Virus record (IMG/VR): IMGVR_UViG_3300006921_000032
Location: 1-41,606 of that record
Strand: one strand, 5' to 3'
Source of the DNA: a virus
DNA: 41,606 bases
This document shows positions 10,275-31,722 of the stretch, in pieces. Each line of letters starts with the position of its first letter. Within the stretch, counting starts at the first letter, position 1. The notes beneath the pieces were generated by a model. The model was not told the DNA's origin and ran no database searches. It worked only from the letters and a program-made list of their open reading frames with translations. The translations under genes and the position numbers were made by a program.

Positions 10275-13200
10275 CTAACGACGGCCTCGTTTTGATTTCC
10301 TTTTGCTTTTCTTTTTTCTTTTAGCTTTAGCTTTAATATTTTCTTTTATTTTTTTCATCTTCTCGGTATCACCAAGATCTAAACTCCAAGTTGTATAACC
10401 ACTAAAGAACATTGCTCTTTGAAAAGCTGTATACTGATTATCTAAAGCATTTCTTACATTTATTGTTTTTTGATATAATCTATTTACAGGTAAAGTAGTT
10501 GTACCTTCTACGTAATTTGTAACAGCAGACCATTGTGGATTATCAATATCAAAAGTTGTCATTTCATCAATAACTTTAGTATTGTAATTAAGTGTTTTTT
10601 CAGCGTTAACTATTTTTCTAGCTCTAATACCTAGTACAGGCGAAAAGTTTAAGGCTTCCATTATAACAGCACTCTCATCCTTGTTGTAACCTTTCTCTCT
10701 TTGCTCCGCAAACTTGATCATCATGTTTTTAATAGTAGACAATGCAACGCCGTATATACCAGAACCTCTTAATATAGTATCTATAGAGCCATTAATAACT
10801 CTTTCTTTTTTCTTTAAAAATGCTTCGTTCTCATCATCATCATCACCAAACATAACGGCAAACAATGCTGTCTGTAAACCATAGAATATTAAGTTTTGAG
10901 CAGCGCCATAATACAATATTCTAGACAAGTTAGACATATCACTTTGCACTTGACTAGTGTTAGGTTTTGTTATTCTTCTGTTTTTAAGATCACTACCAGC
11001 TTTTTTAATTATTCTATTATACTGAGATGGTGTATTCAAAAAGTTTAGCACTAATTTACCTATCCACATAGCTTGTTGTTGCGATGTCATATCTGGTCTA
11101 GCTGACTGCTGCGTAGACTGCGTTATATTTTGAAAATCAGTAAAAGCTTTAGCTTCAGCTTCTTTTTGACTCAAACCTTGTTTTAAATATGTGTTTATTC
11201 TGTTTCTGTAAAACGCAGCGCCACCTGTTGCGATAGCAATACTATCACCCATTTGTGTAGGTAAAAAACCTAATCTAAGTAACTTACCTGTTATAATAGC
11301 AACTTGATCAAACATACTATCTGGCCTAGCTTTTTTAATAGCTTCTACAAGTTCAGCTCCGTTTACATCAGTACCAATACCACCACGTCTTTGTTTTAAC
11401 ATGTCTGAGTTAAGTATAAAAGCAAAATCAGCCCAGTATTGTTTTTGATTAGCAAAAGCAAGTCCTGCTTTAAAAATATTATTATCAGCAAAGTTCAAGT
11501 AATTCACGTTAGAAAGCTGCTGTAATAAAGCGGATCTAGTGTTAAAAAACATAACACCAGCTACAGAAGCATTTAACCAGTTTAAAAATTTATTTGGTTT
11601 TCCACTTTGACCTTTAGGTCTGTTAACACCGGTTTTAATTCTATGTAACATATCTTCTAAAGCCTCTCTAAAATCTTTACCATAAGCAGCTTCAATTTTA
11701 TTTAAGTTTTCTTCAGAAAACAATACGTCAGCGTTTTCTATAAACTCAGAAAGGTATTGAGCTCTACCAACTCTACCTGTAGCGTCAACTAAATCAATTC
11801 TTATGTTAGCTGTTTCCCACGCTTGACCTGGGGCTACATAATCTTTTTGCTTAGATATAACATTTAAAGTTTCAGCATAAGCTTGAAGCTGTGGATCTGA
11901 CTCTACTAGCTTAGTTAATTTAGCTTGATCAGTTTCTGTTAAACCAGGTATTTTATGACCATGTTTATTCCATAAATAAACTCTAATAGCATCTTGAAAA
12001 GTAAAATCACCATCTGGAGTGTTTTTTATAAGCTTTTTATTTACATCAGGAAATTGCTCGTTTAATTTTTTATAATCATTTGCTATAGCTTGCTTAGCGG
12101 TATCTAGTTCTCTATAAGCTCTATTTAAAGGTCTAACTAATGCTTGCTCTAAAAAATCTCTATGAGCATCACCTCTTCTACCTTTGCCCATAAAGTTATA
12201 TAATAAACCTACAAAATCTTCATGTGATGGTGGTATAAAAAATCTAAACTTACCTTTGTCTTCACCACGTTTTCTACCTTTAATAGCTGAAAAACGTTTT
12301 TGACTTTCAATACCTGTAATTTCTTCTAATATATTGTTAAAAGTATCGTTCATACCTTTGCTAAACTTTACTCTAGCTTGTTGAACTTTAGATTTAACAT
12401 CTAATTGATCTAACATGTTTTTAACAGCTTGTACGTTTTGTAAAGCATCATCAGCAAAATAAAAGTCGTTAAAACCTTCACCAACCTTTTCAGCCATCCA
12501 AAGCGCTTTGGCTTCAGCAGTAGAGTTTCCTAAACCAGTTATATTATCAATAGGTATATTTAACCCATTAGCTTTTAAGAAATCAAATATAGCTTTTTGA
12601 GCAGCAGGTGGTCTAGCTGTTAGTACAAACATATTTTTAGGACCAAACTTACTTTGTAGTTTTAATGCTTTTTGAAACAATGGTGCCAACTTACCTTTTA
12701 CCACTTTATTAAACTCTGAGAAATCAAAAGTATAACCTTGATCTAATAAGTTTTCATAAGTACTAGCATATTGCTCTGCATTTAAAGTACCAGTTGTACC
12801 ATCTGGTCTAGTAAATTTAACTAAAGACTTAGTTGTAGCAAGTGTATCATCAAAATCTAAAACAGTAATACCTTTCGTTGGGTTGTTTGCTGATCTAGAA
12901 AATTGCACAGCTTTTTGTATGTTGTTGGAGTTGTCCGCCTTGCTAAAAGGCACCATTACTTTTTCAACAGCTTTGGCAAATTCTACAGCATTTGTAGGTT
13001 TTAAAAGATTAACATTAGATTTAACTAACTCGTTATCTATTATTCTAGGAGAAACTCTAAACTTTAACACTCCATTTTGTGTGTCTAATCTAGCTTGAAG
13101 CTGCATTTTTATTCCATCTTCCGTTTTAAAAACAGGTATATCACCTTTAAACGCGTGTACAATAGAATTTGTTAAACCGTCTAAATTACTATTGCCAGTA

Positions 13201-16200
13201 ATCATTCTGTACAAGCTTTTTCCTACTTGAATAAATCCTTGTGGTTTATTAGTATATTTTCCATTAGCGTAATGCCAAGCAGCATATGATTCGCTAACAT
13301 CTATATGTTTAAACAGTTTTGTTTTTAAATTATCATCTTGTATATATTTAATTTGTTTTGGAGAAAGCTGGTTGCCATTCTTAATTTCGCCTAAATTATT
13401 TTCTTTAAAAATTTTATTTAATTCTTTTAAAGCTATTTGTATTTCAGAACCTATTAAGCTATCGTAAGTATCACCATTTTCATTTGTAGTTGGGTTTTCA
13501 TTAGCGTAGCTTAAAGAGTACTCTCCATTTTCGTTTTGAATTACATTTACAGTTTGAGAAACGCCATCTGCCTCATTCATTTTAACCTCAATACCAAGTA
13601 TATTTTTACCGTAACTAATATAAGCATCGCCTTGACCAACTCCCTCTTTTACTTTTTTGTTAGTCCTTAGTCTAGAGTTTATACCCTGAACAGCGTATTG
13701 CAACGATGATATAATCATTTGCTCAAACGCTTGGTGGACTTTTATATCATTTTTATTTTTTCTAGCTTTTATTACTGTTTTTAGCACTTTTGTAGCTATT
13801 TCGTAATCTGTTAGCCTACTATACTGCTCCGATCTATATGCTTTGTAAGTGAATTCAGCTATAATAGCTAGATCAGATTTTTTAAATTTAGCTTTTTTAG
13901 TCCATCTTTTCCAAACCGTAGAGTTTATTTTATACTCACCATCTTCATATGTTACCAAACCAGCATTAGTCCTCATCTCATTAGTTAAACTAATTATTTC
14001 GCCAGCCATGTTTGATATAATTCTATTTTCATTAGACTTAATTGAAAATTTAACATCTATATTTCTACTTATAGAAATAGCAAGTTGCTCTAAATTATCT
14101 TCAACTAAAGTTTCACCTCTAGCATCAGCAAGTTCTTGCCGTTTTTCAATTATATCTTGTTCTTGAGCAACTTCCATCGTAGCGTCATAAGCTAGCGCAC
14201 CAGCCATGTTTTTTGCTAGTGTATCTTTTCTAGTGCCTTTTTTACCAGACCTTAAACCTGTAACAGGGTTTATTGTTGGTATCATAAAATATGCTAAAAA
14301 CTGCTCTTCAGTAGGCCTTGCTTTTTCGTACAAGTTAACAGACTTATCTTTAATGTACGCGTTTATCGCTGATGGTGGAAGTAAATTTTGATTAACAGCA
14401 TCTTCAACCTCTTGTTTTGTGGTAAGTTTTTTAACAAATTTAGTAAACACTCTGTCAGCTTCAGGTACTTCTCTTTCCATTTGTACTAAGTCAGCTACAA
14501 ATAAGCTTTCCATTATGTTTTCTCTGTATTGCTTTAAATTAAATTTATACTTAGTCGTACCTAAAAAGTTTTTAATATCCTTAAATAAATACTTATTAGC
14601 TTGATCTCTTAGGTTTCTTTGTATTTGTCTAACCGTGTCTTTTGTGCTATACGCTCTTAACAAGCTTTTTCTAGCAGCATCTAAAACTTTCATGTACAAA
14701 ACACCACCTGTTTCTATACCAAGAGCTTTTCTAAACTTAGATTCTTTTTGTTGTTTTACTTTTTGTTTGTCTTCTTTTTCTTGTGCCTGAGCTTGAATAG
14801 ACATGTCTTTTTCCTCAAGCTGTTTCATTTCATTAGTGGTTTCAGCTGCAACTTGAATTTTAACCTCGCCTTCTTTAGTTGTTTCACCTATTTCTTTAGT
14901 GTATTTTATCTCACCTTTTGTTATAACGTTATAAGCTTGTTTTGCTCTATTAGGTATTTGAGGGTTTATATGACCAAATAAACCACTAGAATTTTTTCTT
15001 TCAGGTTGATATTTTTCAAACCAAGAAAAAAGTTCTGCATATGTAGTGTCTAAAAAAGCTTTATTGTTAACACCTTCGTGTGGTTGAGCTAATATAAGAC
15101 CATCTAATAAACCTTGTTCTTGTATTTGCTTCCAAATATTTTTAGCTTCAACTTTAAAATAATAGTTACCCTGGCCTTTTTGTTCTAAATCTGTTACAGT
15201 ACCGTCTTTATCTACAATTTTTTTACCAAAATCGTTTATTGTTTTAGTTTGAGTTTTAGAAAACTTAGGTTTTTTAACTTCTTCTTCAGGACCTAAAACT
15301 AACGTTTGAGTTCTAGTACTACGTTGGAAACTATCAATATATCCAAGTACATCTTGAGTATTGTTAAGTTTAAAGAACATTTCTCCTTTCTTAAAGTACT
15401 TGTTAGAAAATTGATTTATCATTAACTTTAAAGATAATAAAGGATCAGTAGAATTTTCACTTAGTACTCCAGCGTCTTTTAATTCACCAGCTATAGTTAA
15501 AAGCTCCATTAAATCTACAGTCCCATTGTTGTCTTTAGTGTACTGACCAACTCTTTTTAGAAAAGATACATAGTCTTTTTCTTTTATTTTACCTTGTTTA
15601 TATAGAGTCTCAACTTCGTCTTGAATACCTTTAACCGCTATTTTAGAAGATTGAACAACATCTAAATCTTGCACTAAACCAGTTTTAACGTCATTTATAT
15701 GCTGTAACTCATGAATAACAGAGTAAGCATGTATAGACTTCTCTAAAGCGGTTTCAGCGTTGTTTATATTACGTATCATGTTACTTTCTATTAAAATAAC
15801 ATCATTACCTACAAAACTAGCGTTGTGACCTTGTCTAAATCCTTTTAAGTATTCTTTCTTTTGACCTTCTGTTATATTTCCTTTTTTAACTTTTTTATCT
15901 AGGTATTTTTCTAAATCAGTCAGATCAATCGTGCCGTCTTTGTTTATCTTACCAAACTCTTTTACGTTACCCAACCCTTTTACTATATTTTTAGCTGCAA
16001 AAGCTTTACCTAAATAAAACTCTGTTTCTACTTGAATTTTATCATTTTTCAAAGTAGCTTCAATAATTTCTTTTCTTCTCGCGCCAGGCTTACCTCTTAG
16101 TTGATCTCTTTGCCCGTTTAAATTTTTAATATCATTAACGAGTTTTTCTTTTTGTTTTTCTATATAGTTACTTCCAGCTTTTTCATAAGCACTAGACGCT

Positions 16201-18737
16201 CCTAAGTTTTGAATCTGCTTAAGCTTATCTCTTTTCTTCTGGTTAATAGCAAACATCTCTTTAACTTCAGCAGCCGTCATATTAGCAACGTTAGCAAACA
16301 TCTCTGAGTCTTTCATGCCCGCTTCTCTTATTAGTCTACGGTTTTCACTTTCCATAAACTCTCTAGTTCCGGCATCTAATAGTTTAAAACCAGATTCTTG
16401 ATCTGCTTGTAAAGCACCGTTAATTTCAATAATTTGATTTGTTCGTTTTCTATTTTCTAGTATTTCTCCTTGTGTTGCAACCTCGCCTCTAAGAGTATTA
16501 AACACATTCATACCTACAGAAGGACCTTGAATAGCTAGTGTTGAAAATATTATATTAGCATTAAAGTTGTTATCAATACCATCAAGTAAACTTTTGTTTT
16601 GATCCAATACAGTCATATCAACCAAGTTATGACCAACTTGAGTAGCAAATTCCTCTATATACTCAAGACCAACGCCTTTTCCTACTTGCCATGATCCTTT
16701 CATGGTGTTTGCAATATTAAGCCTATTGTTTGTAGGTGAAATTCTATTTAAATTTCTCAGGGTACGCATCGTACCCAAACGCTCAGCATACATAGCGATA
16801 CCACCATAAGCTATTGAAGAAAACGCTTTTTCCATTTCAGTAGCACTTAGCGCTTTTTCGTAATAATCTATTTGATCTAATATTTGAACTCTTTCACCTT
16901 TAGTTGTGGCGGACTTAAGAGACTCTTGTAAACCAGCAATGTACTTACCAGCGTTTTTTTGATCAATCTCCATGTGAGTGTACTTTGCACCACCCTCAAG
17001 CATAAAGAAAGTACCGCTTAAAATTTTAGTAGCCTTTGGGATGTTCATTCCAGCTCTAATAGCACCACTATAAGTCAATGCTGTCGCGATACTAAAAGCG
17101 TTATTACTCAAAGCTTGAGACGACCACTGCCCAATATTATCCCAACCAACATCATCCCAATCAATATCTAAAGGAAGAGAAGCTTGCTTATAGTTCTGCA
17201 CACTTTCGTTGTAGTCAATTACACCAGCATGTAAACTTCTCCAACGGTCCATGTGAGCGGTATTTTGATCCTCTGAAAGAAAGTCTTGAGGATTTACCAT
17301 TATCTGCTTCAGCTTTGTCGGATCAGCAAAGGCAGAGCCAAATGCTGTCACTTTATCAGACGCGTAAGCAAAACCTTTAAGCGCTCCTGAAATCCAAGAT
17401 CCCATTTCAGCCATTCCACTTTCAAAGCTTAAGCTAGTCGAGTTTAGCCAACCGTAATCTAAAGCCAATGCTTTTGCTATGGTAGTTGCATCACTAACTT
17501 TATCAAAGTTATCTACCACCTTGTCAAGGCCAGATTGAATAGTTGTAGCCTCGTTAAATATATCTTCAAAACTAAGATTTTTATCTGATAAAGCTTTTTT
17601 ATATCCCGCTGACAAACTGTTACCCTCGGCAACTAAATTGTTATATTGTTCTATTTTTTCTTTAGACGAATATTCGTCAACTTTTCCAAGAGCGTTTAAA
17701 GAAGCGCTTATACGGTTAAATTGTGGTTCATATGTCTTGTTAACTTCGATGTAGTCATTATACTTACTCTTCCAGTCTTTTGATTTTTTTTGGTATCCAA
17801 TAAACTTGTGGTTAAAATAATCAGCTAAAACTTTTTCAGCCGCACTACCTTGAACCCTAAGTTTCATAATCTCCTCATCAGTAGCTCTATCTCCAAAAAA
17901 AACACTAGTTTTACCTAGTTCTTTCTGTTTAGTTTCTTTAGCCTTGTCGACAGCTAATGCGTCAATATACTTTTTTAACCAATTTTGACCATCACCAGTA
18001 ATACTAGCGTCTTCAGGATCAAATATGTTAAATATACCCTCTTGAACTGCTTTTCTAGCATCTGCAACCATGTCTTTATGCCCCTTGAAATCAGGTTTAA
18101 TATCACCTATATCAAGCCTTCCAATATACTGCTCAACCTCCTCTTGTTTAACAACACCAATAATTTGTTTAACTATTTCATCATCCACCCATTTTGAATC
18201 AAAAACTTCGCTTTGTTTGTATTGTAAATACTGCTCGTATTTTTCTTCTCCAAACCAACTTTTTAAATCATCTTCTTCTGATCTAGCGTATCCTTGAAAG
18301 GAAATTCCACTTCCAACCTTTACTCTTGATTGCTTAAAGTTATCTAAGCTAAAATACTCTTCAGCTAATCTATTTTTAACTTTAACGTGGTTTTTTGTAA
18401 CGCCGTTAGAAATAGCAAGTAAATTTACGTTAAGTTCTTCAGTTGTCTCTGGTAAACCCAAAGTGCCAACGTCCAAACCTGACTCCGTAACGATCGGCTC
18501 TACTCCTGGAGTCGCATCCGCAGAGCCGTTTGTCTTTCCCATTACACTAGTCGTCCACTCTTCTAAGTTGTTAGCTTTTACATTGTAGTTTTGTTTTAAA
18601 TAATCATACACGTTAGACTGTATATCTTTATTATTAATAAAACTACTTTTCCACTCTTCAAAATCTTGCGCTTTAAGGCTAGCGTTTGGATCGTTAGACA
18701 ACGTGTTCCAAATATTATTTAATATTTCTTCGTTCAT
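10275..18737 (-). CDS. Giant multidomain internal virion / ejection-type protein (2820 aa)
   Basis: Visible regions in order: an N-terminal helical part with two similar W-containing segments (about 1-75); long helical coiled regions; a metallopeptidase-like H1009-E-L-Q-H1013; D1704...E1717-V-K1719, compatible with a PD-(D/E)xK nuclease; a HAD-superfamily domain at ~1955-2110 with D1961-F-D-D-T, VLTARP and a later FADD; a conserved hydrophobic region at ~2430-2640 (LPTQMGDSIAIATGGAAFYR, YYGAAQNLIFYGLQTALFAV); and a basic tail (~2800-2820). Comparable huge proteins in short-tailed phages are packaged and enter the cell with the DNA. Lack of a signal peptide and position among virion genes support that reading. 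No RNA-polymerase DxDxD or DFDGD signature was seen. Catalytic activities are motif-based guesses except the HAD domain, which is clear. Confidence 0.8.
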   Translation of the reverse strand: MNEEILNNIWNTLSNDPNASLKAQDFEEWKSSFINNKDIQSNVYDYLKQNYNVKANNLEEWTTSVMGKTNGSADATPGVEPIVTESGLDVGTLGLPETTEELNVNLLAISNGVTKNHVKVKNRLAEEYFSLDNFKQSRVKVGSGISFQGYARSEEDDLKSWFGEEKYEQYLQYKQSEVFDSKWVDDEIVKQIIGVVKQEEVEQYIGRLDIGDIKPDFKGHKDMVADARKAVQEGIFNIFDPEDASITGDGQNWLKKYIDALAVDKAKETKQKELGKTSVFFGDRATDEEIMKLRVQGSAAEKVLADYFNHKFIGYQKKSKDWKSKYNDYIEVNKTYEPQFNRISASLNALGKVDEYSSKEKIEQYNNLVAEGNSLSAGYKKALSDKNLSFEDIFNEATTIQSGLDKVVDNFDKVSDATTIAKALALDYGWLNSTSLSFESGMAEMGSWISGALKGFAYASDKVTAFGSAFADPTKLKQIMVNPQDFLSEDQNTAHMDRWRSLHAGVIDYNESVQNYKQASLPLDIDWDDVGWDNIGQWSSQALSNNAFSIATALTYSGAIRAGMNIPKATKILSGTFFMLEGGAKYTHMEIDQKNAGKYIAGLQESLKSATTKGERVQILDQIDYYEKALSATEMEKAFSSIAYGGIAMYAERLGTMRTLRNLNRISPTNNRLNIANTMKGSWQVGKGVGLEYIEEFATQVGHNLVDMTVLDQNKSLLDGIDNNFNANIIFSTLAIQGPSVGMNVFNTLRGEVATQGEILENRKRTNQIIEINGALQADQESGFKLLDAGTREFMESENRRLIREAGMKDSEMFANVANMTAAEVKEMFAINQKKRDKLKQIQNLGASSAYEKAGSNYIEKQKEKLVNDIKNLNGQRDQLRGKPGARRKEIIEATLKNDKIQVETEFYLGKAFAAKNIVKGLGNVKEFGKINKDGTIDLTDLEKYLDKKVKKGNITEGQKKEYLKGFRQGHNASFVGNDVILIESNMIRNINNAETALEKSIHAYSVIHELQHINDVKTGLVQDLDVVQSSKIAVKGIQDEVETLYKQGKIKEKDYVSFLKRVGQYTKDNNGTVDLMELLTIAGELKDAGVLSENSTDPLLSLKLMINQFSNKYFKKGEMFFKLNNTQDVLGYIDSFQRSTRTQTLVLGPEEEVKKPKFSKTQTKTINDFGKKIVDKDGTVTDLEQKGQGNYYFKVEAKNIWKQIQEQGLLDGLILAQPHEGVNNKAFLDTTYAELFSWFEKYQPERKNSSGLFGHINPQIPNRAKQAYNVITKGEIKYTKEIGETTKEGEVKIQVAAETTNEMKQLEEKDMSIQAQAQEKEDKQKVKQQKESKFRKALGIETGGVLYMKVLDAARKSLLRAYSTKDTVRQIQRNLRDQANKYLFKDIKNFLGTTKYKFNLKQYRENIMESLFVADLVQMEREVPEADRVFTKFVKKLTTKQEVEDAVNQNLLPPSAINAYIKDKSVNLYEKARPTEEQFLAYFMIPTINPVTGLRSGKKGTRKDTLAKNMAGALAYDATMEVAQEQDIIEKRQELADARGETLVEDNLEQLAISISRNIDVKFSIKSNENRIISNMAGEIISLTNEMRTNAGLVTYEDGEYKINSTVWKRWTKKAKFKKSDLAIIAEFTYKAYRSEQYSRLTDYEIATKVLKTVIKARKNKNDIKVHQAFEQMIISSLQYAVQGINSRLRTNKKVKEGVGQGDAYISYGKNILGIEVKMNEADGVSQTVNVIQNENGEYSLSYANENPTTNENGDTYDSLIGSEIQIALKELNKIFKENNLGEIKNGNQLSPKQIKYIQDDNLKTKLFKHIDVSESYAAWHYANGKYTNKPQGFIQVGKSLYRMITGNSNLDGLTNSIVHAFKGDIPVFKTEDGIKMQLQARLDTQNGVLKFRVSPRIIDNELVKSNVNLLKPTNAVEFAKAVEKVMVPFSKADNSNNIQKAVQFSRSANNPTKGITVLDFDDTLATTKSLVKFTRPDGTTGTLNAEQYASTYENLLDQGYTFDFSEFNKVVKGKLAPLFQKALKLQSKFGPKNMFVLTARPPAAQKAIFDFLKANGLNIPIDNITGLGNSTAEAKALWMAEKVGEGFNDFYFADDALQNVQAVKNMLDQLDVKSKVQQARVKFSKGMNDTFNNILEEITGIESQKRFSAIKGRKRGEDKGKFRFFIPPSHEDFVGLLYNFMGKGRRGDAHRDFLEQALVRPLNRAYRELDTAKQAIANDYKKLNEQFPDVNKKLIKNTPDGDFTFQDAIRVYLWNKHGHKIPGLTETDQAKLTKLVESDPQLQAYAETLNVISKQKDYVAPGQAWETANIRIDLVDATGRVGRAQYLSEFIENADVLFSEENLNKIEAAYGKDFREALEDMLHRIKTGVNRPKGQSGKPNKFLNWLNASVAGVMFFNTRSALLQQLSNVNYLNFADNNIFKAGLAFANQKQYWADFAFILNSDMLKQRRGGIGTDVNGAELVEAIKKARPDSMFDQVAIITGKLLRLGFLPTQMGDSIAIATGGAAFYRNRINTYLKQGLSQKEAEAKAFTDFQNITQSTQQSARPDMTSQQQAMWIGKLVLNFLNTPSQYNRIIKKAGSDLKNRRITKPNTSQVQSDMSNLSRILYYGAAQNLIFYGLQTALFAVMFGDDDDENEAFLKKKERVINGSIDTILRGSGIYGVALSTIKNMMIKFAEQREKGYNKDESAVIMEALNFSPVLGIRARKIVNAEKTLNYNTKVIDEMTTFDIDNPQWSAVTNYVEGTTTLPVNRLYQKTINVRNALDNQYTAFQRAMFFSGYTTWSLDLGDTEKMKKIKENIKAKAKRKKKSKRKSKRGRR

Positions 18738-23502: not shown

Positions 23503-25650
23503 TTATTGAGAGTTTGCAGACCCGATACAATCTGAATTTTGAGCAACTGCATTTAAACAATCAATTTCAGTTGCATATGTGGTTGGTATTCCAATTCCAG
23601 CAGCTTGATCACAAGGAGACGGCTCTTCACAAGCGCAACCTGCTATACCAGCATTGTTAGGCACAGCGTTAAAACCTACGTTAGGGTTAGGTACACCTAA
23701 GTATATGCATTGGTCGTCATCAGTGCAAGGAAACGTATTTGCTAACGCTTGATCAAAAAAGCAAGAAAGTGGATCTGTACAACCACCAAATACACAACTG
23801 TTATCGTCCATAGAAACACCGTCAGTACAAGGTGTTGTAGAGCCAGAGTTCAAAGCTGTTGAGCAGTCAAAATTACAAGCTGTTGGTGTCATACAACCGA
23901 AAACATGTGCGCAGCTACCGTCATCTTGACATGCGTTTGGGTTATAGTTTGGATAAGTTGAATCAGTACAACCAGAGATATAACAACAGCTAGTTGGAAT
24001 TGTATCTACATTAGCTGTAGGGTCATAATTAAGAGCTGTTGAGTCCATACAACCAACTACAGCTGGTATACATGAACCATCGTCATATAATGCTGTAGAA
24101 TCAAAATTAATTGCTGTAGAGTCCATACAACCATAAACAGCGAGTATACATGAACCATCATCTACAGTAGCCACAGGATTATAATTAAACATTACATTGT
24201 TTCCGTTAGCATCTGTACTACCGTCCGTACACCCAAGTATAGTGTAAGCGCAACAACCATTACCTTGAGGTGTTGCGTTGAAACCATTACCACACTGTAT
24301 TGTACAAAGATTGCTAATGTTTCCGTTTATTAAAACGCTACAAGGAGTTCCCATTTGGCCAACTCCACCGGTACCGGTTTGAGAACCATAATTATCAGCT
24401 GGAAAAGCATTGTCAATACAACCAGCACACGTAGCGTAATTACACGGCGTTGGATCATTAGCTTGAGGATTATAATCGCAAGCGTTTGGATCCATACAAC
24501 CTTGTGTTAAAATTGGAGAACCAACTAAAACGGTTACGTTTTCATTATACTCACATATACCGCTAACACCATACTGGTTAGGGCCGCTTAAAACCTGAAC
24601 CGTGTATACACCTGGAGCTAAATGAGAGAAAAGTATAGAGTTTGAATTTACAGCGTTATATAAACCTGAGTTTGGAGTAAAAGTATAAACAGCCACAGAA
24701 CCACTAGAGTTTAACAACTCTATTGTAAACGGAGTGTAAGTTTGACCTTGAGCGGTTGGATTTGGAAAGTTTACATTTACTTCAACAGCAACTTGACCGT
24801 CATTTGTGTTTGGCGTTGATTCATTTATATTAGTAATAGCAACAGGATTACCATTATAAGGGTAGACACCGCCTTGTACCCAATCGCAAGCAATACAATT
24901 ACTAGGATCGTTTATTTGAGCTGACGGGTTGTAGTTTGCTTGTGTATCATCAGTACAACCAACACTGTAAGCACAAGAACCGTCGTCATTATTTGCAGCA
25001 GGATCAAAGTTTGTAGCTAAATATCCTGATATGTTAAGGCCAGAAGGTGGTATATTTCCATTTATATCTGGATTGATACCAGGTGTATCATCTGTACATC
25101 CGTCAAAAACACAAGCAGATTGGTCACTAGTGTTTATGTCAGAGCTATTACCTGCTGGTATTACGTAGTTAGATGCTGTAGGATCCATACAACCTGTTAT
25201 AACTGGTATACAATTGTTGTTATCTACAGTTGCCGTATTATCATAATTAAACGCTGTTGGATCTGTACAACCAAGTACAACCGGTATACAAGAGCCATCA
25301 TCACTAATAGCTACTGGTATATTATTAGCCGCAGCATAAGCGTACGCAGCTGTAAAGTCTGTTGTGTTTAGAGCGCTATTGTCCGTGCAGCCGAGCCATA
25401 TACAAGAGTTGTTACTAACATTTACAAAAGCATTATAGTTAGAAGCTGTTGGCTCCATACATCCAATAACAGCAGCTCCATTGTAAAAACAACTACCATC
25501 ATCTGTATTAGCATTAGAGTTATAATTTGTTGCAAGAACATCAGTACATCCATGTATTGGATTTGGTGGTGGTGGTGGTGGGTTAAAGCAACTACCATCA
25601 TCAATTGTAGCATTTGGATTATAGTTTGCAAAAGTGTTATCTGTACAACC
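23503..25650 (-). repeat. GCTD-type coding repeats of the giant virion protein
   Basis: About 16 units starting with GCTD, GCMD or close variants run from residue 2025 to near the C-terminus. Unlike the regular array of the secreted protein, unit lengths vary widely (about 20 to over 40 residues) and inserts occur, such as the ~125-residue SprB-like block. The Cys framework and the NYN/DDGSC landmarks are kept. Confidence 0.8.
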
Positions 25651-28600
25651 AGGAACTGGTACAGCAACAGGTCCATCATATACTCCTAAACCTTGTATAC
25701 TAAAACTAGCTTGGTCAAAAGAAGAACTGCCGTCATTATTAATATGTATTTGATTACCCACTGACAACTGAACGTTTTTACCTTTTATGTAATTAAACCA
25801 TTTACCTTCTTTTTCTATAAATTCATTTACACTGCCTTTTTCTTTATCTGTAATTATATTATTTACATACCAACCTTTCTTAAGCGTTAGATTGTAATAT
25901 TGGTTGTCACTTAAAGTCACACCAGTGCTAGGGTTTGTGTTAGAAACAAATTGATCAACTTTAGACTGACTACCTTCGTAGTTTATTGTTTGATACGATT
26001 TAACAACGCTAGGTGCATCATTTAAAATAACTTCTAGCGATGAGTAGTCGTTTTCAGTATGAGCACCGTAAAAATTGTTTCTAGTTTCAGGAATTGTTTC
26101 AACGTGATGCTTCCATATTACACCATTTTTTAGCGTGTAGTAATCGTTAGCGCAGCTAATAGCGTTTTCAGGAACAAATGACTTAAAACTAACCCAACCT
26201 CTAACTGATTCGCTAAAAGAAACAGTTGTTCCGGTGTTAGGTAAAGTTACATTGTATTCGTCTTTTTTATCATCATAACTACCTATAATTTTATCGTTAG
26301 ACTTGAGATTATCTTTAAAATAATCTTTCATACCATGCGCTGATATAGGTGTTAACCCATCCATAGATAGCCTAATAACCTTACCTCTTACTTTGTCGGT
26401 AAAGTAAACTCTATAGGATTCTGAAGCAAACGATTCTGGATTTGTAGATATACCAAACTCTCCAACAAAAGGAATGCTCTGTCCTAAAACCCTTTCGTTA
26501 GCGGTTAATTGAGGGCTTCCATCAGCATTAAACAAAGCATCTTTATTTGCTAGTATTTTAATTACTTTATCTTCACACAAAGCAATTAAATCAGAATCTC
26601 TAGCGTGTAACTTTTGAATACTACCATAAGTAGGGTTTAAGTCTTTTGTTATTTTTTCAGCAGCTATAAATTGATTTAGATTATTAACACCAGAGTTAGA
26701 GTTGTATAAACCAGAAAATATCAAACCGCTTTTCCTACGCTCTTCTTCATAAGGCTCTAGAATAGTTGCAGAGGCAATAGCTCCATTATCTATAGACACG
26801 GAATTAAAGTCATCTCTTATACTATTAGATTCTACTCCATTGTTAAAGGAAAAACAGTTGCTCCAAGACAATCCATTAAGCAGCCCTAGTTTAAACGGCC
26901 TAACATAATATTGAAAATAATCAGCGGTACCAGTTGTATTTAAGGGGTTTGTTGGTCCATTAGGAAAAGTAGCCGAAGCTGCTGATTGCCAAAACTCAGC
27001 TTGAGATTCTGATCCATCATCTAAAGTAAAACGTATAATATCTTCGTTTGCAAACGTTAACGGTTTGTTTGTTACTAAAACTATAGAGTTACTAATTTGT
27101 CTTTCTTGCCAATCAACAACTGTAGTACCAGGTTGTATTAACACAGAAGGATCGTCAGGTCTTATCAAACTACCAATAGGCATTTTTAATAAAGCATTGT
27201 CTTTACTTATAGAAAAAGGGTAAGACCTACTAGCTTCATAGTAAATGTCAAGACCGTCGTTTTGTTTTGGTTCGGTCTCCCATATCGAAGGGTTCAAACT
27301 AGAGTCAACACCAAAACCATCAAAAACCGTCCGTGCTTCTAAAAATACTATTTTAGCAAAGTCGCCAGTTATTGTTGGCGTGTTCCAGTTACCAGCATAA
27401 CCAGGAACATTACCAATACTTCCATCTGTAGGAGTATAACCGCTTGCACCTATATCCTTATCTAACAGTATGCTAATAGTGTGCCTGTGATTTGCATTTG
27501 CAGTGTAATTAACACTATCGGATATTGGAGTTGAGCCGTCATGAGGGTAGTTTGAGCTAAAATTTGGGTCAGCCTGAGTTACACCAGGGTAGGTATCGTC
27601 ATAAAATCCTTCAGAATAATTTTTCTTTGATTGTATTCTGAAATCTAAAATAGTAAATACTTCTTCGGTAGGATCGTTATCAAATCTAAATTTATTACCT
27701 ATAGTACAAAGTTCAAACATAATATTACGTTGTGCATCGTCTAACGATGTTAACGCTAGCTGTGCGTCGTTCCAAGTTAAATACCCAAAACCATTTGGAT
27801 CATGAGGAGTAAAACCTAAACCACCTTGGCTAGGCTTCCACTCGTTTCCAATACCTCCTATTATAGATATATCAAGAACATTGGCGGGCGAAGCGCCTGC
27901 TCCGTTACCCTCGTGATAGTATTTGTTTTGAGACAGAGAAGTGTTGTTTAATAATGGTTCCCATACACACGCAGCTATTCTATCGGGGCAAGGGTTAGTT
28001 AAATTAGATGGGATACTGTTAGTTACACCACTTACCGTTTGGCATCCAGTGTAATCAGTTAATTGATCGCTGGACAAAGATGTGTGATAAGCGTATAAAG
28101 AGCTTAAGTTTGTATCAACATTACTGTAGTAATCTAAAGTTGGTTGGGGTGAAGATGCAGAGTTCCAACCTCCAAAAAGAGCAACTTGATTTCTTTCTCT
28201 AGTTTCACTATCATCTACAAAACGAGTTTGAAAAGCCTCTCTAAAGTTATAAAACGGAGATATACCAGTAGCAAAAGCTTCATCAATAAAAAAACCTTTT
28301 GCTGAAGAAGCATTTAACTTGTTATGTATATAAGACCAAGCTGATGGATGGTAATAAGCGTCAGTTGGTATAGGTACTCCACTTACGCCACTTGGATATC
28401 TAGCGCTAGCCCAAGAATGTGGCAAAGCAGATATTTGACTAGAAACTGTTGTAGAAAAGTTAGAGGAAATATTACCTTGACCACTAAAATCTTCTTGTGT
28501 AAAATCTTTTACATAACCAAGATCTTGTTGAAGTTTAGGAACTAAAGTTTGAGAACCCATTTGGCTTAACACTTGTTCGTAGAAACTTATATCTTTTAGT

Positions 28601-31600
28601 ATTTTAACAAAAAACCTACCAGCAAACTCTGCTAAGTTATCTCTACGTATTAGTTTTCTAAACTCTAAAACTGGCGCGCCGTTTGTGCCTTCGGTTGTAA
28701 CTGTACCAATTTGATCCGTGAAAAAGAAACTTGAATCGTTCTCCCAAGCTTCTGATAAATGTATAGTGAAATCCTGTTGTTGGGCAGATGATGAAGTTGG
28801 TAAAGTATCAAGAGTTACTCCGTTTTTGCCGTAATGAGTTATTTTATTTATCTTTCTCCAAGAGGTAACATAATTGCCTTGTACAAAGTTTGATTTGAAA
28901 GTATTTATTCTAACCTCTACCTCATACTCATCACTGATTAAACTACTAGGTCTTAAACGACCTACACTACCACCGATACGATTAACTCCAGTTGGAGTAA
29001 CATCACCTTTAACATGTAATTGTTTAGTGCCAGGCAGGCCATTTACTAAGACGCTGTCAGGGTAAGCATTGGTAGTATTGTCAACAAATAACGGGTTTGT
29101 TGTAACAGGAAGTCCACTACCACCATTATTACCGTTTGTAACAGGACCTTCTACAATTTTTGCTAAATCTTTTTTGTCTACTTTTATAAAGTTAGGAGCT
29201 TCGTTTTTAATATCAAGAATTTTATATCTATAATCAGCTAAAACTAAATTGCTAGAGTTTTGTTCTTTTTTTAATATTAAATAAGTGTCAATATCTACTT
29301 TGTTTCTTTCTGAAGACGGAAAAGAAAGCCATATATTACTATCTTCAGCATCGTAGAACCTGTCCATAGACAAATTATAGTACTCTGTTGACGTTTCTTT
29401 CACGTAGAACTTATAAGATTCAACCCAATCAGGAAGTTGATACCCATCAGTGGTTTTCCAAGAAACTTTAAATCTATTATTTTTGTCCGCGTTAGCCTTA
29501 GATAGAGTCACCTTATTCTGTTCGCTAGTTATAACAGGTGTTTCTCTACCATATTTGTCAGAAAAAACTAAACCTACCTCGTAGTCTCTTATAGATTTTA
29601 TACTTTTAAATCTTTCGTTATTTGGATAAGGAGATATAGATGTGCTTATTAATATATTTTCTTTTTCTATATTGTAATTTTGTAAGTAGTTACCATAAAC
29701 CAACCTACTCCCAACTATATCTTGACCTAAAGCAGCTCTAGGCACATTATCATAGCTTCTTAGTATTTGCTCAGAAGATATTAAAGCGTTGATGTTTTCT
29801 GACGTTATTATGTATTCGTAGTTGTCGTCTAATTTTTTAGGATTCCAAATAGAAGTATCAGCCGGTACTGGAAGTTTTTGAGGTAGGTTTGTTATTGTTT
29901 CTAAAAGATAAACATTAGGAGAATCTGACTCTTTATAAAGTATATCTATATCTACAACGTCTTCTGGTATATCTAAAGTTATAATATCTTTTAAGCTAAC
30001 AGAGGTAATACTGTTTTCCATACCAATATTAAAACCTGTTCTAGCATTATACTCGTAGTTGCTAGGAACAAAAGCAACATCAGAGAAAGGTGAAAAAGAA
30101 GAATACTGACCGTCTTTATATTTATATCTAGTCGCGAATCTTGGGAATTTTAGTTTGTATAATACTTTAGAATTATCTAACAAGTCAACAGCGTAGTCAC
30201 TACCTAATGAATTACCAACAAATTGTTGTACAATTATAGATACGCTTGTCATACCGCTAGCTGAAGAACTACCTATAGAGACTATAGAACCAGACAAAGT
30301 GTAATTAGAGTTTGTTGATATTGGAAAAAATGAAGTTATATTTGTTGACAGGTAAGAGCTTAATAGTTTGAAAGCTAAAACATCTCCAACTTGATAGTTT
30401 AATTCAGTTGCAAAAGGAGAAGTTATATCTATAGTCAAAGTGTCTCCAACCCCAGCGTTAGCAGTAGGTACTTGATACGCTATGCCATAAGAGTTACCAT
30501 CTCTACCTTGCTTTGAATTTATTATAGGAGGGTTTTTTGGTGCATTTTTAATAACAGTAACATGTTTTTCCCTAGCTGGAACTAATATGTCTCTTTCCTC
30601 AACAAATATATCTGTATGAAAATTACCAGTTTGATCAGTACCTTTTATGCTGTCTGTAATATTTATACATTTTGGTTCTGAATAGTTATCAGTCCAAAAC
30701 AAAAGATCATCAATGATATTTATTCCAGTTATTAAGTTTTTTCTGTCTAGTTGTAATGTTTTAGATTCAAAAACCCAGTGTGTAACAATCATTTGAATGT
30801 TAATCCAAGCGCTAGGACAATTTGGTGGGTTAACTAAGTTAGGAACGTAAGTATACGTGTTGTCCTCTGCAATACAACCAAAACCTCCAGTAGTGTTATT
30901 TAGTTGAACTATACCCTGTATTCTTTGATCTCCATTGATATCTGTCCATGTTCCAACTTGCTCAACGCTTAACACAGAGGTGTTTGGCCAAAAATTCATT
31001 ATTTCGTTAGTGTGAGGGTTCAACCCGACACCAACAACGTCCATACCAGCTGTTATGTTTGTAACATCACCAACTTCTAATTGAAATATCGTAGAATTAT
31101 TATAACCATATCCAGTACCAAAACTAGAAAACCCACTTGATATAGTGGGTGTAAAAGAGCTAGAAGGAGCTACATCGCCAGCTAACACCTCAAACTGACC
31201 ACCGTCTGTTGAGCCTACATTAGCATCCCAAGCATTTATAGTAACAGATGCTTTATCTACAAAGACCAACTCAGCGTTGTTGTTTTTATACTTAACGATA
31301 GCGGATTTGCTTTCAACAATCCAATTAAAACTATTATAATTCTGAAAGTTAGTTGCTATAACGTTTAGTAGTGGTGATGAGTTTGTGTGAACAACTTGCT
31401 CTAAAAGAACATTACCTGATTGTGTTATTTGATCTTTCCAAGTGTACTCAGCTAACATCCAGTAAAGCTCATTTTTAGCCTCGTTAGATATAGAACCTAC
31501 ACATATGTGGTTGTTGAATAAGCTTAACGCGTTATTTATAGGTAAACCTGGTGTTATAGCAAGACTATTACCTAGTATATTTTGAACGGTACCAACATCA

Positions 31601-31722
31601 GATCCTTCTGAAGTTGTAACTTGAATGTTAACAGCGTGTCTATACTCTCCCTTGGGAACAAGACGCTCGTCTACATCTTTGTTCATTTTACCACCGGCAA
31701 ACTGATTCTTAATCTCTGGCAT
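23503..31722 (-). CDS. Giant virion protein with C-terminal GCTD-repeat region (2739 aa)
   Basis: The N-terminus (MPEIKNQFAGGKMNKDVDER, then a YRHAVNIQV motif) is a start I associate with large structural proteins of marine Bacteroidota phages; the SIQKLHARDSDLIALCEDKV and VGEFGISTNPESFA segments before residue ~1900 recall tail-stabilisation proteins of crAss-like phages (unverified). The middle is a long beta-rich region. From residue 2025 to the end there are about 16 GC[TM]D-type units, many ending DDGSC, with a poly-Pro linker after the first and an SprB-like segment at about 2280-2405. No signal peptide, consistent with assembly into the virion and not export. The repeat region may project outward and bind host surface components, or bind calcium through its Asp-rich loops; both are inferences. 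Start is 3 bases after the upstream gene's stop. Confidence 0.78.
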   Translation of the reverse strand: MPEIKNQFAGGKMNKDVDERLVPKGEYRHAVNIQVTTSEGSDVGTVQNILGNSLAITPGLPINNALSLFNNHICVGSISNEAKNELYWMLAEYTWKDQITQSGNVLLEQVVHTNSSPLLNVIATNFQNYNSFNWIVESKSAIVKYKNNNAELVFVDKASVTINAWDANVGSTDGGQFEVLAGDVAPSSSFTPTISSGFSSFGTGYGYNNSTIFQLEVGDVTNITAGMDVVGVGLNPHTNEIMNFWPNTSVLSVEQVGTWTDINGDQRIQGIVQLNNTTGGFGCIAEDNTYTYVPNLVNPPNCPSAWINIQMIVTHWVFESKTLQLDRKNLITGINIIDDLLFWTDNYSEPKCINITDSIKGTDQTGNFHTDIFVEERDILVPAREKHVTVIKNAPKNPPIINSKQGRDGNSYGIAYQVPTANAGVGDTLTIDITSPFATELNYQVGDVLAFKLLSSYLSTNITSFFPISTNSNYTLSGSIVSIGSSSASGMTSVSIIVQQFVGNSLGSDYAVDLLDNSKVLYKLKFPRFATRYKYKDGQYSSFSPFSDVAFVPSNYEYNARTGFNIGMENSITSVSLKDIITLDIPEDVVDIDILYKESDSPNVYLLETITNLPQKLPVPADTSIWNPKKLDDNYEYIITSENINALISSEQILRSYDNVPRAALGQDIVGSRLVYGNYLQNYNIEKENILISTSISPYPNNERFKSIKSIRDYEVGLVFSDKYGRETPVITSEQNKVTLSKANADKNNRFKVSWKTTDGYQLPDWVESYKFYVKETSTEYYNLSMDRFYDAEDSNIWLSFPSSERNKVDIDTYLILKKEQNSSNLVLADYRYKILDIKNEAPNFIKVDKKDLAKIVEGPVTNGNNGGSGLPVTTNPLFVDNTTNAYPDSVLVNGLPGTKQLHVKGDVTPTGVNRIGGSVGRLRPSSLISDEYEVEVRINTFKSNFVQGNYVTSWRKINKITHYGKNGVTLDTLPTSSSAQQQDFTIHLSEAWENDSSFFFTDQIGTVTTEGTNGAPVLEFRKLIRRDNLAEFAGRFFVKILKDISFYEQVLSQMGSQTLVPKLQQDLGYVKDFTQEDFSGQGNISSNFSTTVSSQISALPHSWASARYPSGVSGVPIPTDAYYHPSAWSYIHNKLNASSAKGFFIDEAFATGISPFYNFREAFQTRFVDDSETRERNQVALFGGWNSASSPQPTLDYYSNVDTNLSSLYAYHTSLSSDQLTDYTGCQTVSGVTNSIPSNLTNPCPDRIAACVWEPLLNNTSLSQNKYYHEGNGAGASPANVLDISIIGGIGNEWKPSQGGLGFTPHDPNGFGYLTWNDAQLALTSLDDAQRNIMFELCTIGNKFRFDNDPTEEVFTILDFRIQSKKNYSEGFYDDTYPGVTQADPNFSSNYPHDGSTPISDSVNYTANANHRHTISILLDKDIGASGYTPTDGSIGNVPGYAGNWNTPTITGDFAKIVFLEARTVFDGFGVDSSLNPSIWETEPKQNDGLDIYYEASRSYPFSISKDNALLKMPIGSLIRPDDPSVLIQPGTTVVDWQERQISNSIVLVTNKPLTFANEDIIRFTLDDGSESQAEFWQSAASATFPNGPTNPLNTTGTADYFQYYVRPFKLGLLNGLSWSNCFSFNNGVESNSIRDDFNSVSIDNGAIASATILEPYEEERRKSGLIFSGLYNSNSGVNNLNQFIAAEKITKDLNPTYGSIQKLHARDSDLIALCEDKVIKILANKDALFNADGSPQLTANERVLGQSIPFVGEFGISTNPESFASESYRVYFTDKVRGKVIRLSMDGLTPISAHGMKDYFKDNLKSNDKIIGSYDDKKDEYNVTLPNTGTTVSFSESVRGWVSFKSFVPENAISCANDYYTLKNGVIWKHHVETIPETRNNFYGAHTENDYSSLEVILNDAPSVVKSYQTINYEGSQSKVDQFVSNTNPSTGVTLSDNQYYNLTLKKGWYVNNIITDKEKGSVNEFIEKEGKWFNYIKGKNVQLSVGNQIHINNDGSSSFDQASFSIQGLGVYDGPVAVPVPGCTDNTFANYNPNATIDDGSCFNPPPPPPNPIHGCTDVLATNYNSNANTDDGSCFYNGAAVIGCMEPTASNYNAFVNVSNNSCIWLGCTDNSALNTTDFTAAYAYAAANNIPVAISDDGSCIPVVLGCTDPTAFNYDNTATVDNNNCIPVITGCMDPTASNYVIPAGNSSDINTSDQSACVFDGCTDDTPGINPDINGNIPPSGLNISGYLATNFDPAANNDDGSCAYSVGCTDDTQANYNPSAQINDPSNCIACDWVQGGVYPYNGNPVAITNINESTPNTNDGQVAVEVNVNFPNPTAQGQTYTPFTIELLNSSGSVAVYTFTPNSGLYNAVNSNSILFSHLAPGVYTVQVLSGPNQYGVSGICEYNENVTVLVGSPILTQGCMDPNACDYNPQANDPTPCNYATCAGCIDNAFPADNYGSQTGTGGVGQMGTPCSVLINGNISNLCTIQCGNGFNATPQGNGCCAYTILGCTDGSTDANGNNVMFNYNPVATVDDGSCILAVYGCMDSTAINFDSTALYDDGSCIPAVVGCMDSTALNYDPTANVDTIPTSCCYISGCTDSTYPNYNPNACQDDGSCAHVFGCMTPTACNFDCSTALNSGSTTPCTDGVSMDDNSCVFGGCTDPLSCFFDQALANTFPCTDDDQCIYLGVPNPNVGFNAVPNNAGIAGCACEEPSPCDQAAGIGIPTTYATEIDCLNAVAQNSDCIGSANSQ
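25561..25582 (-). repeat. TGG microsatellite encoding a poly-proline linker
   Basis: A run of GGT/TGG triplets on the plus strand encodes six consecutive prolines on the minus strand between the first and second GCTD units of the giant protein. A shorter run near 6981-6992 encodes four prolines in the secreted protein. Such runs can slip during replication, changing linker length by whole codons. Confidence 0.7.

Follow-up and report, generated by a model that had tools for sequence, protein, structure and literature searches.

A single open reading frame in the virus genome analysed here (an IMG/VR virus record of 41.6 kb, called the window below) encodes 2820 amino acids without an internal stop (10275-18737, minus strand, as are all features described below unless another genome is named), and it combines peptidase-, nuclease- and phosphatase-type motifs in one polypeptide. 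A first-pass annotation made from the letters alone had quoted H1009-E-L-Q-H, D1704/E1717-x-K1719, D1961-F-D-D-T and VLTARP, and we found the frame and every one of these motifs in place, the second as E1717-V-K1719 and the last as V2038-L-T-A-R-P. We consider it quite probable that this is a 'polyvalent' ejection protein, modular and carried in the virion, from an uncultured marine lineage of podoviruses with kin among the flavobacterial phages (Pervagoviridae, Pachyviridae, Elemovirus), and that linkers bearing the tripeptide FSK or FSR (FS[KR]) connect its exchangeable modules; these linkers are candidate processing sites. Its predicted layout runs from a variable N-terminus through a helical virion or ejection domain, a zincin-like peptidase, a helical module B and a slot, here filled by a PD-(D/E)xK-type nuclease, to a HAD phosphatase and a helical C-terminus.

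Scans of the whole 2820-aa protein against Pfam and PHROG gave nothing significant, with no Pfam family above its cutoff, and tblastn of the whole protein against phage records found no match. The same search with the C-terminus, the nuclease or the EHxxP cassette of relatives (described below) returned zero or insignificant matches. Adjacent genes match PHROG families of terminase, portal and virion structural proteins. The product of 23503-31722 is a 2739-aa muzzle-type protein with a crassvirus MUZ C domain (E 6e-7), much longer than its cultured relatives. Phages of Cellulophaga, Flavobacterium, Tenacibaculum and Maribacter, together with one environmental genome, hold the nearest relatives of the portal and muzzle-type proteins, and the source is an uncultured marine virus, probably a flavobacterial one.

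An IMG/VR search yielded 2 close relatives first and then 80 loci by way of the C-terminal block. The comparison set consisted of 75 full-length proteins, the window protein and 74 IMG/VR relatives, each encoded by a single ORF. BLAST coverage along the window protein was about 74 relatives at aa 1950-2750 and mostly 3 to 22 at aa 1-1900, indicating that a conserved C-terminal part stands behind a mosaic N-terminal part.

The first-pass annotation had proposed that the protein is probably injected with the DNA. The evidence that bears on this comes from the N-terminal helical domain (aa 392-895, 16053..17564), whose aa ~420-890 align to the N-terminal part of the syntenic giant proteins of the cultured flavobacterial phages phi38:1, phi18:3, Gundel_1 and elemoC (hhalign probability 98.9, E 1.8e-17, 380 columns). 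A profile built from these four proteins only found the window protein with hmmsearch (E 8e-12) along with about 20 relatives. One of the four, phi18:3 gp123, carries an annotation based on experimental MS/MS proteomics and occupies the same gene position as the window protein. Homology and synteny with this detected virion protein thus support virion carriage, and from them we infer that the window protein itself is packaged and ejected. That it is an early intracellular multi-enzyme and no virion component seems very improbable to us, since the N-terminal homology and synteny with gp123 argue against it, as does the location of the gene in a structural gene block.

The region from the N-terminus to the zincin also shows divergence. 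In relative L002 identity is 96% from aa 1151 onward, and the counterpart of aa 88-1150 is very divergent, again with an HExxH. This block (L002:10001-13130; L006 aa 88-1036) has diverged so far that BLAST barely detects homology, yet its ejection domain is the same and it has an HExxH, while the surrounding DNA is about 93-94% identical between the phages. Judged by the sequences, this is a recent module exchange.

The putative zincin-like metallopeptidase domain spans aa 900-1150 (15288..16040). HELQH at aa 1009-1013 (15699..15713) is the sole HExxH of the window protein, and such a motif was found in 72 of the 75 full-length proteins. Among nine window-type sequences the invariant residues include H1009, E1010, H1013 and E1078, the last a putative third zinc ligand (15504..15506). 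A second zincin family (n=40, mean identity 23%), in which N, H, E, H and E are the only invariant residues, is homologous to the window type, and its distal invariant glutamate aligns with E1078. The structure model places HExxH and E1078 on two separate helices, with strands before the first, as expected of a zincin, in which HExxH is followed by a distal Glu in a second helix. Because PDB sequence profiles and a fold search with the whole model gave no significant zincin match, the proposed fold rests on these residues and on the topology. Three relatives (L044, L071 and L076) have no HExxH at all and keep the HAD domain and the C-terminus.

Downstream of the zincin lies module B (aa 1162-1562, 14052..15254), helical in the model and common to about 20 relatives, and then the slot (aa 1590-1925, 12963..13970). 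Twelve sequences with a mean identity of 34% all have E1672, D1704, E1717 and K1719, which the model assigns to a helix and to paired strands, in the arrangement of PD-(D/E)xK enzymes (E on the helix, then D, then (D/E)xK in a hairpin). Searched by fold against the BFVD library, this region hit a 225-aa protein of cyanophage P-SSM2 (E 2e-5); the Holliday junction resolvase of P60 was a weak match (prob 0.60, E 0.16). The first match (Q58MG2) is probably PSSM2_192 (YP_214424.1), judging by length and sequence, and PSSM2_192 carries all four signature residues. Its gene (L103:5263-5937; P-SSM2 157263-157940) is stand-alone, annotated as hypothetical and adjoins purH genes. This relative was reached through the fold match only, as the zincin and nuclease sequence profiles found nothing in the P-SSM2 genome. 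Against the PDB, the sequence profile of the nuclease gave no convincing match and the fold search no significant one.

The nuclease is missing from most relatives. Its residues are invariant in 12 sequences and yet most of the family lacks the domain, which makes it one option in an exchangeable slot. Relative L003 keeps aa 1-1579 and 1922-2820 and has the nuclease slot swapped for about 850 other residues (its aa ~1580-2430), which bear a PWCLC motif. Another 24-25 relatives (e.g. L018:8549-9463, L010:8570-9463) have an alternative slot module with an EHxxP motif, in which only E, H and P are invariant and one Arg is near-invariant; it had neither a Pfam nor a phage match.

The HAD phosphatase domain (aa 1955-2122, 12372..12875) is far more constant. 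DxDxT, represented by D1961, D1963 and T1965, is present in 75 of 75 full-length proteins, and T2040 (motif II), K2077 (motif III) and D2096/D2097 (motif IV) are invariant across 65 sequences. Pfam recognised DUF2608 in 55 and HAD in 8 of 62 members, the window protein itself scoring below cutoff, and the domain matches the PHROG family phrog_415, polynucleotide kinase (E 6e-4). PNKP was its best PDB sequence match, at a non-significant level, and HAD phosphatases appeared in the PDB fold list, weakly and with non-significant E-values. These matches make a nucleic-acid-end phosphatase the likeliest activity. About six relatives have a P-loop kinase (AAA_33/Zeta_toxin, E down to 2e-13) inserted between the first and second HAD motifs; in L063:8804-10000, and likewise in L057, L059, L060, L062 and L051, GGAGSGKS falls between DxDDT and LTARP, forming a kinase-phosphatase chimera. 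The HAD domain of the window protein has no such kinase. We had considered the Zeta_toxin matches as a separate toxin cassette, a reading rejected by the position of the P-loop kinase inside the HAD domain.

How far do these results bear out a stack of peptidase, nuclease and phosphatase? Conservation in homologues had been set as a check that could refute it, and the motifs withstood it, with HExxH and DxDxT near-universal or universal and D/ExK with E1672 invariant in 12 diverged sequences. The three signatures therefore stand as zincin-type, PD-(D/E)xK-type and HAD. A fixed three-enzyme stack is not supported, since most relatives have something else in the nuclease slot. The second check, fold searches, left the two folds unconfirmed: with one multi-domain model as query, nothing in the PDB matched significantly as a zincin or PD-(D/E)xK fold. 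Foldseek of model 1 (aa 880-1950) had beta-lactamases at the top with TM ~0.1, which is noise. This failure is qualified by the predicted secondary structure, which fits both folds, and by the match of the nuclease region in the viral library. It counts in favour of an alternative in which the zincin and HAD domains are catalytically dead, with a structural or regulatory role, but we regard this as improbable, because in alignments that otherwise diverge widely it is the catalytic residues that stay invariant.

The C-terminal block (aa 2130-2820, 10278..12350) had been described as conserved and membrane-like. It is conserved, being kept in 74 of 74 relatives. The membrane-like character was not borne out: no 19-residue stretch of the protein passes a mean hydropathy of 1.4, and the block is all-helical in a model of moderate confidence. 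No convincing match to the PDB or Pfam was obtained. Distant matches were to Gundel_1 gp074 (E 5e-7) and to the giant PLxRFG protein encoded by Klebsiella phage ZX1 (E 1.5e-4). The ZX1 protein is L110:1516-13119, and its C-terminal region is the part that matches. LPD38 as the identity of the C-terminus was silent in 9 records, its positive control being absent.

What, then, joins the modules? In the window protein FS[KR] tripeptides stand after the zincin, before the HAD domain and after it, mostly in or beside low-confidence linkers of the model. Junction 1 (FSK, aa 1159-1161, 15255..15263) is at the edge of a linker with pLDDT<50, and DNA homology switches there: that of L002 resumes at aa 1161, that of L028 ends at aa 1161 and that of L003 at aa 1160. 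Junction 2, after module B, is an FSI variant (aa 1564-1566, 14040..14048) in a coil of the model, and the protein homology of L003 ends at aa 1579. Junction 3 (FSK, aa 1931-1933, 12939..12947) is identified by its motif and is followed by junction 4 (FSR, aa 1946-1948, 12894..12902), in a low-confidence segment, where DNA homology resumes (L007 at aa 1942, L028 at aa 1943 and L003 at aa 1946). Junction 5 (FSK, aa 2125-2127, 12357..12365) lies inside a segment with pLDDT<50, and its serine is invariant in A9.

Upstream of the C-terminus FS[KR] was observed 201 times against 53 expected from shuffles, counts that are not independent as many sites are homologous. FSK reached 8.4 per 10,000 residues, compared with 1.5-2.8 for four of its permutations and 1.5 in the other ORFs of the same loci; the permutation KFS, which overlaps the FSK motif, reached 6.3 per 10,000. 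With all pairs counted, breakpoints upstream of the HAD domain fell within 6 aa of FS[KR] 31 times against 6.5 by circular shift, about a 5-fold excess; the p value of 0.0005 is the floor of 2000 shifts and is optimistic, since related proteins do not yield independent breakpoints. Most control tripeptides showed little excess, but LS[KR] had some, with 16 against 6.1, which weakens the case for FS[KR]. The signal was weaker at the protein level than at the DNA level. Single-linkage clustering of the motif contexts was uninformative because the junctions chain clusters together. No description of such a junction motif was found in the open-access papers that were searched. On these sequence comparisons we take the FS[KR] sites to be exchange joints between modules.

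The serine codons of FS[KR] are a mixture of 68 TCN and 79 AGY, near their background rates, which rules out a DNA recombination sequence and places the constraint on the peptide. This is awkward for one account of the joints, namely that FS[KR] is merely a tolerated flexible linker spread by recombination, whose shared sequence guides module exchange without any processing, since it is not the DNA that is conserved. That account agrees with the coincidence of breakpoints with FS[KR] and with the fact that the motif is not a rule in giant phage proteins (as a general feature of these it was dismissed after seven others did not show it), and we give it somewhat less than an even chance. Constraint on the peptide favours the other account, in which the linkers would be cut by the zincin of the protein or by another peptidase, so that a virion polyprotein would release its modules before or after ejection. 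The recurrence of FS[KR] between modules, in or next to linkers of low model confidence, is consistent with such cleavage, as are the zincin in 72 of 75 proteins and the proposal of Iyer et al. 2017 (PMC5512222) that zincins process polyvalent proteins. Several proteins (L023, L029, L055 and L077), however, have an HExxH zincin and no FS[KR], and the same paper describes the N4 virion RNA polymerase as packaged unprocessed despite its zincin domain; we hold cleavage to be possible and put it forward tentatively. Neither the cultured relatives nor the giant protein of ZX1 showed an enrichment of FS[KR], so any processing signal would be specific to this lineage. The most explicit form, in which the protein's own zincin recognises FS[KR] and frees the nuclease or alternative cassette and the nucleic-acid-end phosphatase during or after ejection, cassettes being swapped at the same sites, is doubtful.

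Under our preferred reading, a modular ejection protein, the protein would be packaged in the particle and leave it with the DNA, its N-terminal helical domain would aid envelope crossing, and the predicted enzymes would set to work immediately on nucleic acid, either that of the host or the incoming one. The FS[KR] linkers would serve module exchange between relatives and might serve processing. Healing of nucleic-acid ends may be one function, to judge by the nested kinase of some relatives. Polyvalent proteins are poorly characterised, and their action is predicted for the first minutes of infection. In the present family of 75 full-length members, nearly all share a fixed chassis of zincin, HAD and C-terminus, the slot takes alternative cassettes, and one short junction peptide recurs. 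With this family one can test whether proteins of the type are divided by cleavage, and how enzymes that arrive ahead of gene expression affect the nucleic acid of host or phage. Through domain swapping at FS[KR] the protein is a naturally occurring cassette system, and as a possible self-processing polyprotein it can be put to the test.

Polyvalent ejection proteins are the known kind to which this protein most probably belongs; new here is a peptidase/slot/HAD chassis with peptide-marked exchangeable cassettes. With the phage-type polyvalent proteins of Iyer et al. 2017 (PMC5512222) it shares giant multi-domain, virion-type organisation, a zincin, disparate enzymes, large helical regions and predicted early-phase action. 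Several disparate biochemical activities in one polypeptide characterise that class, and the window protein has the signatures of three (zincin, PD-(D/E)xK and HAD). It matched none of the Pfam domains associated with the class (the LPD series and MPTase-PolyVal), an auxiliary and not strictly defining feature; Pfam scans matched no LPD domain, and ART-PolyVal matched weakly in one relative only. HAD and phosphatase terms are absent from the text of that paper, whereas the window protein has a HAD domain, and the portion covered makes no mention of FS[KR]-bounded cassettes. The giant proteins phi18:3 gp123, phi38:1 gp101, elemoC gp20 and Gundel_1 gp074 have the gene position and the homologous N-terminal helical domain in common with the window protein. 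Those of elemoC and Gundel_1 also have HExxH, unlike those of phi18:3 and phi38:1; none has DxDxT or an enrichment of FS[KR], and the C-terminal block is seen, distantly, only in Gundel_1. The N4 virion RNA polymerase gp50 has a likely membrane-spanning N-terminal domain, a zincin-type HExxH domain and a large helical C-terminal domain without known relation (PMC12633501), a likeness of described layout; it carries an RNA polymerase where the window protein carries the slot nuclease and HAD. PSSM2_192, with E, D and ExK conserved in 225 aa, is a free-standing cyanophage gene, unlike the window module. The HAD domain resembles, through the phrog_415 profile, that of Pnkp (polynucleotide 5'-kinase/3'-phosphatase), and relatives add a P-loop kinase; in contrast to Pnkp, the relatives that have this kinase carry it inside the HAD domain, after motif I and before motif II, and the window protein has none. 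Genes of crassvirus cargo proteins follow the muzzle and tail genes (PMC10172136), and the gene of the window protein, with its muzzle-type neighbour, is alike in placement.
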